Origin: Geopsychrobacter sp.
Lineage (GTDB): Bacteria; Desulfobacterota; Desulfuromonadia; Desulfuromonadales; Geopsychrobacteraceae
Assembly (NCBI GenBank): GCA_012974425.1
Contig: JAAXQE010000202.1
Location: 1 to 35,774, forward strand
Direction: 5' to 3'
Length of the DNA stretch: 35,774 nucleotides
Shown: one piece after another, positions 1 to 33,504 of the stretch
Position numbering within the stretch: the first letter of the stretch is position 1
Layout: the number at the start of each line of letters is the position of its first letter
The notes under the pieces: model-generated
Database searches by the model: none
What the model was told of the DNA's origin: nothing
The model's input: only the letters and a program-made list of their open reading frames with translations
Made by a program: the position numbers and the translations under genes

Positions 1-210
1 GGCGGATTTCACGACATAGATCATAGCCGCTCATCTCTGGCATCATCACATCCAGCAGTAATAGATCCGGCTTCTCTCGGCGGTAGAGCTCCAGGGCCTG
101 GCGGCCATCAGCGGCGGCGCAAACCCGGTAGTGTTCCGCCTCTAGCAGGTCAACCAAACCCTGACGCAGGGTGACATCATCCTCGGCAATCAGAATCAGC
201 GGGGCGCTCA
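1..210 (-). CDS. Response regulator receiver domain protein (N-terminal part; runs off the window edge)
   Basis: Reverse complement reads MSAPLILIAEDDVTLRQGLVDLLEAEHYRVCAAADGRQALELYRREKPDLLLLDVMMPEMSGYDLCREIR, with acidic EDD pocket and LLLLDVMMP phosphoacceptor motif. ATGA overlap with the kinase stop. Confidence 0.88.
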
Positions 211-1610
211 TGGGGACTCCTTGTGTGTCGGCAGGCTCAAGCAGAAGCTGGATCCGCCGGTCTCTGCCGCTTTGCAGCTCAGCTCGCCGCCCATGCCGCG
301 TGCCAGTTGGCGGGCGATACTCAGTTCGTGGCCGGCTCCGGGTCGTGAACTGGTGAGGGAGCTGTCGAGGCGGTGGAATTTGGCGAAGATTTTCAGCCTT
401 TGGGCGCTTGGAATGCCTGGGCCGCGATCGGTCAGGCGCAAATCTATTTTTTCTGTGTCACCCCTGAGCTCGATCATCAACTCGCCACCCTTGGCCGCGT
501 ACTTGATCGCATTGTCGATCAGGTTGAGCAGGATCTGTTCAATGGCATCGCGATCGCTGTGAACTGGAAAGGGCCCGGTTTGAAACGGTTTTACCAACTT
601 GAGGCCGGCTTGATCGAGGCGGAGCGACCTGCTGGAGGATATCCTCCAGCAGGTCGCTCCGCTCAAAATCGGCATAGTTGAAGGTCTTATGCCCCTGCTC
701 AAGCCGACTGAAATCGAGAATATTATTCACCAGGCGGGTCAAGCGCTGACTTTCCCGGATGATCGTCTGCAGATATGTTTGTTGCTTCTGTGCTGCGTCG
801 ATCTTCCCCTCGCCGAGGAGCTCCGCATACATGCGGATTGTGGTCAGCGGGGTCTTCGGCTCATGGGAGACGTTGGAGACGAAGGAGGTCTTTTGCCGCG
901 CATCACGCTGGTTGCGAACGGCCTGCCAGAGCAGCAGGGAGCCGCCGAGCAGAATGGCGATGATAAAGCTGCCGGTGAGCAGGCTGCCGATCAACAGAAA
1001 CCCGAATTTTGAGACTTGCTCAGCGCCGCCGCTGTAGATGTTGATCCGCCAGTGGGGCAGGCCGCTCAGGCTGCGACTGGTGGACGGACGACTCTGGGCG
1101 CTGATTTCGAAGGGATCGCTCTGGTGAACGATGCGGTTGCTGCCATCGAGTAATGCCAGGCTTTCGTTGCTGTTCAGTGCGGGGCTGAGCGAACCGAGCA
1201 GGCGGCTTAAGAGTGCCATCATCTCGAGTTCAACAGGTAGCGCCTTATCCCATTTGCCGGCTGGTACCAGCCGATCAGGTGGAGCCGGTCGTCGGCGTAC
1301 CAGCTGCGCCAACTGCTCTCGCCCTGGCTTAGGGATACTCCTGGGGGCCGCGCTCGACTCGCTGGATACCAGCGCCTTGCTGGCCAGCTGGCGTAGTTCC
1401 TTGCGTTCACTGAGGACCGAATCGGCGGCAATTGTGGCCGATTCGGCCGTTGCTGGCGGTACCCGGTCTGCACGCGGCTGCGGTCTGGAGTTCGCGCTGC
1501 GCAAAACGTTCACTCTCATTCTTGAGGAGCTGCCAGGCTCCAACCCCAAGGAGCAGGGTCGGTACCAGGAGCAACAGCCAGGAGGCGATGATCAGTCTCG
1601 TGCGGATCAT
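208..1610 (-). pseudogene. Sensor histidine kinase, decayed by several frameshifts
   Basis: Kinase pieces lie in different frames: N-terminal signal anchor MIRTRLIIASWLLLLVPTLLLGVGAWQLLKNESERF (ORF 1407..1610), sensor/TM/H-box VSNVSHEPKTPLTT (ORF 539..1549), N/G boxes LLNLIDNAIKYA...GAGHELSIARQLA (ORF 208..702). Confidence 0.85.
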
Positions 1611-1680: not shown

Positions 1681-2995
1681 TCAGTTTTTCTGCTGCTTAC
1701 GCACCTTGTAACTTTCCGAGCGGAGTTCTTTCTTGCGCGGGCTGAAGATACTCGGTGCGGCGAATTCTTCGGCATCCTCTTCCTGGGTTTTAGCTTCTTC
1801 GGCCAGGTCGCTAAAGCCGAGGGTTACGCTACGTGCCCCAAGTTTATCGCTGCTCTGGCGCAGTTCGCGTACCGCTTCATCCTTACGCCCGGCGTTGTAG
1901 AGATCGAGGGCGCGGTCACGGGCGACAGCCATCTCGTTCTCGACCACAGCTTGCTGGACCGGGCGGCTGGCTGAGCGTTGGATCTCTTCTTGACGCTGGG
2001 AGAAGCTCACGCTGGACAGGCGCAGAGTTTTTTCCGCCTTATTGGTCAGGGCATTTTCGTAGTAACAGTCGACGCGCAGGATCTCGCGCTGTTGGCCGGC
2101 TTGGCCCGGTTCAATCAGGACCTCAATTAACGCATATTTCAGCTGTCCGTTCGTAGAGTTGATTCATCTGCAGCTCGACGCGGTTGCCGCGGATGCTCCC
2201 CTCGCGCCCAATAACCCGCAAGGGGCGGACACCGGGGAGGCATTCGATATCAATCCGTATCCGGTTGGCGGCAATGCTCAGGACGTCACCCCGTTCTGCA
2301 GCGAAGATGCGTGGCAAGTCGTTGCTCGACTCGACAAAATAGTGGTTGCCGTCGCTGCGGCTGGCCAGTTGAGCCATCAGGTCTTCATTAAAGTCGGTGC
2401 CGATCTCGATGGTGGTACCCGAGATCCCTTCCTTGAGCAGGGCTGCGCCGAGATCGGCTGCAGAGCTTGGCCCGACGTTGGCCAAACCGTCTGAGAGCAG
2501 GATCATCCGCTGGATAAAGTTTTCATCCTGGTGCTTGCGGATTTCGGCAGCGCCCTGGCTGACGGCCCCAAACAGTGCCGTATTGCCGCCAGCGGAAATT
2601 TCACGGATACGCGCTTCGATCCACTCGCTGTTCGCGGCGCTCTGGGGTGGGACCAGGGTGCTGACATTGTGGTCGTAGACCACCAGGGAGAAGAGATCGC
2701 GTTCACTGAGGCGCCGCAGCGCAGTAATGGCTGCTTCCTTGGCTTTTTGGAGCTTTTGGCCAGACATCGAGCCCGAGCGGTCGAGCACCAGGGTCAGGTT
2801 GACTGGCGGGCGCTGGCTGCTGTCGGCGAACTGCGGAACATCAAGCAGTATCTTGATGATCGCTTTTTCGGATTGTCCGGCTGGTAATACGGTCCGATCA
2901 AGGTCGAGGTTGAGGTTGAGCAGGGGACTGGCCAAAACCGGAGCGGCCGAGGCAAGTAACAGAAGTTGAAGCAGAATTTTTAGTGTCGATTTCAT
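1681..2995 (-). pseudogene. Secreted von Willebrand factor A domain protein, interrupted by a frameshift near 2150
   Basis: ORF 2123..2995 has a signal peptide and MIDAS-like LVLDRSGSMSG. The other frame continues GQLKYALIEVLIEPGQAGQQREILRVDCYYENALTNKAEKTLRLSSVSFSQRQEEIQ into ORF 1681..2010. Confidence 0.8.
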
Positions 2996-3319
2996 GTTGC
3001 TCTCCTTTAGGACAGCGGTGCGGGCCTGCGATGTTACCAGTAAGCACTCTGCTGTCGTAAAGGCTGTCAGAGGGTTGTCAAAGGATTGTAGAAAAATATT
3101 AGAGCAGATGCGCGCAGAAAAAAAGACTGCGAACAGCTCCCAGCTTGACAGCTTGGTTTTTTAGCGTCAAACGGCGTGAAAACGTCAGATCGGGTCAGGG
3201 CGTATATTTCTCCTTGCAATCGGCCATTTAGACACATATAGTGCAAAATTGTTTAAATTCTGCTGAGCCCCTTCAGGGCTGGATTGCGGCCATCTCTTTC
3301 TCTCGCCGATGAGGGTTCC

Positions 3320-3766
3320 ATGAGTCTTCAGGATCTATTGACCAACGACATGAAAGATGCGATGCGGGCGAAGGATTCCGTACGCTTGACCACCATACGC
3401 CAGCTGCGTAGTGCGATAAAAAATAAAGAAATTGAGCTTGGCAAGAGTCTCGATGATGAAGCTATCATCAGCGTGATTACCACTCAGGGCAAGCAGCGGC
3501 GTGAAGCGTCACAGATGTATCGCGAGAACGAGCGGCTTGAGCTGGCCGAAAAAGAGGACGCCGAACTTGAAATTCTGCTGGCTTACCTGCCTGCGCAACT
3601 CAGTGAAGTGGAGATCCGGTCCATTATCTCTGCGGCGATTGCCGAGACGGGTGCCACTTCGCCTAAGGATATGGGCAAGGTCATGGGGCTGGTCATGGCC
3701 AAGACGCGTGGCTGCGCCGATGGCAAACTGGTGAATCAACTGGTTAAGGAACTGCTCGCAGGCTAA
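3320..3766 (+). CDS. GatB/YqeY domain-containing protein
   Basis: MSLQDLLTNDMKDAMRAKDSVRLTTIRQLRSAIKNKEIE...LLAYLPAQLSEVEI...KDMGKVMGLVMAKTRGCADGKLVNQLVKELL, typical YqeY pattern; internal ATG chosen as start. Confidence 0.9.
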   Translation: MSLQDLLTNDMKDAMRAKDSVRLTTIRQLRSAIKNKEIELGKSLDDEAIISVITTQGKQRREASQMYRENERLELAEKEDAELEILLAYLPAQLSEVEIRSIISAAIAETGATSPKDMGKVMGLVMAKTRGCADGKLVNQLVKELLAG

Positions 3767-33171: not shown

Positions 33172-33206
33172 AAAGGCCCCACCGGACGATTGTCCGGTGG
33201 GGCCTT
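33172..33206. terminator. Strong bidirectional hairpin terminator
   Basis: AAAAAAAAGGCCCCACCGGAC-GATT-GTCCGGTGGGGCCTTT. Confidence 0.85.
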
Positions 33207-33504
33207 TCATTCAACATTTGCGGGGAAGCGTACATCATGCCGCCCATTGCGCTGCAAGTGGTCGATATTTAGCCCATAGTTTAATCCGCATGCTCTGCGT
33301 ACCCCAATATATACCCCAAGCTCAGTTGTAAAAGTCTGAACTTGATCTGACAGAGAGTGTCAGGTTCGGTCGAAATCTTCTTCAAAACTTACAACTTTTG
33401 AGATGTAGATATGAAGACGCCCCAGTGAGGACCGGGGCTCTATTTGTCACAAATTGTTTTTCTTTTTATGTTTTTTCAATGGTTTGCTAGTCAATAAATC
33501 AAAA

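Follow-up and report, generated by a model that had tools for sequence, protein, structure and literature searches.

The 44-bp perfect palindrome at positions 619..662 (no strand assigned) was very probably produced by quasipalindrome correction, that is, by a template-switch mutation, inside a decaying histidine-kinase pseudogene. This origin had been proposed in the initial annotation of the DNA, and comparison with relatives supported it in that the changes specific to the window were reverse-complement copies of the opposite arm. The window, i.e., the whole 35,774-nt stretch that was analyzed, is an entire contig (C195) of a 327-contig draft genome that is 99.8% complete, and the nearest same-genus relative at the locus is Geopsychrobacter MAG CSMAG_3061 (Desulfuromonadales), which is 82% identical.

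The palindrome consists of GCGGAGCGACCTGCTGGAGGAT followed directly by ATCCTCCAGCAGGTCGCTCCGC, two 22-nt arms that match window positions 619-662 exactly and form 22/22 pairs with a spacer of 0, as originally described. Given the composition of the window (53% GC), the chance expectation for a 44-bp palindrome was 2.2e-9 per window and 2e-7 per 3.28 Mb genome. It was the sole spacer-free palindrome with arms of at least 12 nt in the window, ~295 kb of other loci, and a 177-kb sample of the same genome drawn as 20 stretches. The runner-up in the window and the other loci (331 kb counted, some of it overlapping) had an 11-nt arm, and the longest spacer-free arm elsewhere in the sample of the window's own genome was 9 nt. 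Folded as single-stranded DNA, the palindrome segment reached -29.6 kcal/mol versus -9.5 kcal/mol for shuffled sequences (z ~ -9.3), while DNA folding at the same site in relatives ranged from -5.9 to -11.1 kcal/mol. Elsewhere on the contig, positions 33172-33207 hold an inverted repeat (AAAGGCCCCACCGGAC/GTCCGGTGGGGCCTTT) whose perfect arms of 16 nt enclose a 4-nt loop and whose form is terminator-like.

Alignment with orthologous kinases, which the initial annotation had put forward as a check, showed that the reading frames of all five same-genus relatives are intact and that the nearest of them carries an imperfect version of the palindrome; the perfect palindrome was absent from all relatives aligned at the site. 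The coding-strand sequence of the nearest relative is TTC GAT TTG ATT GAG CTG CTT GAG GAT ATC CTC TTG CAG CAG TCG TTA CGA CTC GAT, and the window reads TTT GAG CGG AGC GAC CTG CTG GAG GAT ATC CTC CAG CAG G TCG CTC CGC CTC GAT. The five same-genus relatives, each with an intact kinase, have in-frame and at most weakly palindromic sequence here; in the nearest, which is a relative and not the immediate ancestor, GAGGATATCCTC is flanked by CTGCTT/TTGCAG and forms an imperfect hairpin of -10.9 kcal/mol.

The differences fall into separate blocks of the two arms, all read on the minus strand, which is the coding strand. In the outer left arm (653..661), CGGAGCGAC (CGG AGC GAC) is a derived, in-frame 9-nt block that stands in place of the relatives' Leu-Ile-Glu codons (TTGATTGAG-like) and equals GTCGCTCCG of the ancestral right arm in reverse complement. 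The outer right arm (619..627), TCG-CTC-CGC, is ancestral; it specifies the first three residues (S-L-R) of the conserved motif SLRLD and is at present read in frame -3. This assignment of derived and ancestral states follows from eleven relatives, since the codon replaced by CGG is Leu in 11/11 of them and the Arg-(Leu/Ile) that ends the right arm is conserved; copying would have run from the right arm to the outer left arm. The inner right arm (628..640), ATCCTCCAGCAGG, is partly derived and is the place where the frame is lost: it replaces the relatives' ATCCTC-NNN-CRN-CAG with a net change of -2 nt and has the left arm as its reverse complement. Within it, CTCCAGCAGG took the place of CTC-TTG-CAG-CAG, which is longer by 2 nt, and corresponds to CCTGCTGGAG of the left arm in reverse complement.

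When the intact kinase of a relative was used as a tblastn query, residues 136-420 matched in frame -2, ending at position 629, and residues 421-558 matched in frame -3 from position 630. The frame loss reported at first is thus real, but it had been placed just after the palindrome, and the net loss of 2 nt falls within the right arm, where the peptide SLRLDQAG of the ancestral frame also starts. The peptide SDLLEDILQQ, initially taken for plausible kinase sequence, proved to be ancestral only in part, the R-S-D encoded by the left arm being derived; same-genus relatives read mostly L-I-E-L-(L/V)-E-D-I-L-x-(Q/R)-Q at this position.

The signature of template switching was scored as the drop in edit distance obtained by allowing two patches, each an exact reverse complement of nearby window sequence, and was calibrated against ~105 66-nt segments per relative from the same ~2.7-kb alignment. 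At the palindrome, two patches lowered the edit distance from 17 to 6 against the nearest relative, from 23 to 8 against the second, and from 20 to 8 against the third; the 11-15 edits removed compare with gains of 7 or less for segments that do not overlap the site. In a stricter one-patch search that took the relatives' own DNA as template, the palindrome site was indistinct from background because the relatives are too diverged, their right arms differing from that of the window by ~2 bases in 9.

The second-best two-patch site (gain of 5-7) was at 1417-1446, where a variable linker of the kinase pseudogene contains an imperfect palindrome of 13/15 pairs and no spacer; its left arm is unlike that of the relatives and matches the complement of its right arm, and the frame is kept. 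This near-palindrome may be another template-switch product, a faint suggestion given that near-palindromes of like quality also occur in the relatives.

The changes most probably came about as follows. The ancestor would have read in frame approximately ...GAG TTG ATT GAG CTG CTG GAG GAT ATC CTC (TTG) CAG CAG TCG CTC CGC CTC GAT..., with the 12-bp palindromic core GAGGATATCCTC and its CTGCTG/CAGCAG flanks already in place. During replication a strand would have folded at this core and the polymerase would have taken the opposite arm as template. The left patch would have introduced CGGAGCGAC from the ancestral right arm, 9 nt for 9 nt, keeping the frame and turning Leu-Ile-Glu into Arg-Ser-Asp; the right patch would have converted the inner right arm to CTCCAGCAGG, the complement of the left arm, with loss of CTC-TTG-CAG-CAG, a change of -2 nt, and a shifted frame. 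The alignment shows which bases were altered and that the other parts of the arms kept their ancestral state, and the immediate ancestor is a reconstruction from relatives of which the nearest is 82% identical.

Both arms were altered, so that at least two patches, and probably two, are needed. That a hairpin formed, which patch came first, and whether one or several replication events were involved is our inference; the most economical order would be the left patch followed by the right, because the extra G of the right arm pairs with a C brought in by the left patch, and the patches may represent successive events or a single one. A rather unlikely variant is a reciprocal rewriting of the two arms within a single event of replication or hairpin repair (outer left from right, inner right from left), giving a two-way patchwork instead of the usual one-way correction. 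Quasipalindrome mutations arise during replication and become more frequent when exonucleases are lost. Loss of ExoVII or SbcD as a source of a mutator background was looked for in this genome and not found: it carries both xseA, which encodes the large subunit of ExoVII, and a homologue of SbcD, and neither gene points to such a background. The SbcD homologue (G000:C321:2139-2870) scored 172 bits, above the curated cut-off, and among the same-genus relatives four gave partial, sub-threshold SbcD matches (57-61 bits) and the fifth searched gave none.

The palindrome lies in a gene that has suffered extensively. The sensor histidine kinase (HisKA + HATPase_c; 211..1610, minus strand) is a pseudogene with its pieces in three frames, and the five same-genus relatives encode intact proteins of 557-560 aa (in one of them translation may start further upstream). 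Five lesions besides the palindrome were counted: a frame-changing deletion of ~275 nt in the sensor region with its junction at 1471..1473 (minus strand), two frame slips near 1340 and 1237 that bound a stretch read in another frame (1234..1345, minus strand), and, relative to the same-genus kinases, a Leu to Pro change in the H box (SHELKTPLT to SHEPKTPLT) and a change from GLG to GHE in the G2 box. The indel that correction had been expected to create is present, but the kinase was not broken by it alone.

In minus-strand order the operon comprises a VWA-domain gene, the kinase, and a response regulator gene. The VWA-domain gene (1684..2995, minus strand; intact at 440-441 aa in relatives) carries two lesions within window 2100-2460: a +1 nt frameshift near 2150 and, next to short CTCGGC repeats in the relative, a deletion of 9 nt near 2450 that keeps the frame. 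A YSC84-like gene, which lies between YqeY and the VWA-domain gene in 5/5 same-genus relatives, is missing at 3000-3320. The response regulator gene (2..211, minus strand) is open over its first 70 codons and truncated by the contig end; the corresponding protein in a relative has receiver and Trans_reg_C domains. No remainder of this gene turned up in the assembly; a different contig of this genome (G000:C161:1) starts just downstream of its expected end. The kinase, the VWA protein, the response regulator, and the YSC84-like gene are all intact in 5/5 same-genus relatives.

Judged by sequence comparison, the operon is decaying in this genome, as evidenced by the five other kinase lesions together with those of the VWA-domain gene, and the palindrome is only one of its many lesions. 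We reject general sequencing error as their cause, because YqeY, CvpA, MutS2, DnaG, and RpoD, further along the contig, are full length and unbroken. The pN/pS of the kinase (0.264 vs 0.173) says only that inactivation was recent, since the rise is modest and the intact neighbours rise similarly. The palindrome has no evident function and could persist through relaxed selection on the gene.

Other accounts of the palindrome have to be weighed against this reading. A library or assembly artefact, in which end-repair fold-back or palindrome collapse in the assembly graph replaced one arm by the complement of the other and the organism itself has no palindrome, would be in keeping with a draft fragmented into 327 contigs, with a site ~620 nt from a contig end, and with the multi-nucleotide substitutions that enzymatic fragmentation generates at palindromes (PMC6941819). 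However, such artefacts gather near read ends (PMC6941819) and by inference should be outvoted in the consensus, both flanks run colinearly into the same gene, both arms are altered, and 2 nt are lost. The full-length, unbroken neighbours (MutS2, DnaG, RpoD, CvpA, and YqeY) and the lack of a second long spacer-free palindrome in 177 kb of the same assembly also speak against an artefact, which we consider improbable.

It is still less probable that the palindrome is a functional element, be it a terminator, a protein-binding site, a recombination site, or a regulatory RNA hairpin. Its strong hairpin potential on either strand would suit such a role, yet it is embedded in the coding frame where this links the HisKA domain to the HATPase domain, and it is absent from the relatives. 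No T-run follows the palindrome, no terminator was called at the site, Rfam gave no match, and no second copy occurs in the genome; a terminator or a known RNA was rejected, given the missing T-run of an intrinsic terminator and the missing Rfam match. Least credible of all, to the point of being nearly dismissible, is the formation of a perfect palindrome by chance through independent point mutations and indels. The gene is indeed a pseudogene with other lesions, but ~five substitutions and two indels would all have had to fall on complementary bases, against an expectation of 2e-9 in the window. A template switch accounts for the perfect complementarity, for the clustering of the changes, and for the indel.

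In quasipalindrome correction, which is established in Escherichia coli and other organisms, a nascent strand stalls, folds back on itself, uses its own arm as template, and then returns (PMC7202029, PMC8604942). The mechanism is already textbook and the finding leaves the known view of it unchanged; what the locus offers is a clear natural case, in an environmental bacterium, of a template switch that changed both arms and left a long perfect palindrome. Three codons replaced in frame here lie next to a frameshift, and the case shows how template-switch events add to pseudogene decay.

The closest parallel is quasipalindrome template-switch mutation as described by Ripley (1982) and at the E. 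coli thyA hotspot by Dutra and Lovett (2006) (summarised in PMC7202029): in both settings an imperfect inverted repeat is made perfect, the other arm is the template, and an indel breaks the frame. Features of such mutations that were found here are an imperfect repeat at the site in a relative, a repeat made more perfect, and new bases that complement the opposite arm of the window. In contrast to those mutations, both arms were here rewritten in patches and the palindrome is long (22-nt arms), and whereas laboratory quasipalindrome mutations are scored directly, this one is a fossil in a pseudogene. The homogenisation of arms that causes multinucleotide mutations in coding genes of Saccharomyces cerevisiae strains (PMC8604942) is alike in that a block of neighbouring coding changes reproduces the partner arm in reverse complement, among them the replacement of several codons in frame, but the present case is bacterial, spans a larger evolutionary distance, and involves a broken gene. 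Template switching that creates or repairs RNA stems (PMC8794818) similarly yields a perfect stem through reverse-complement copying, although an RNA function is not indicated for the palindrome described here.
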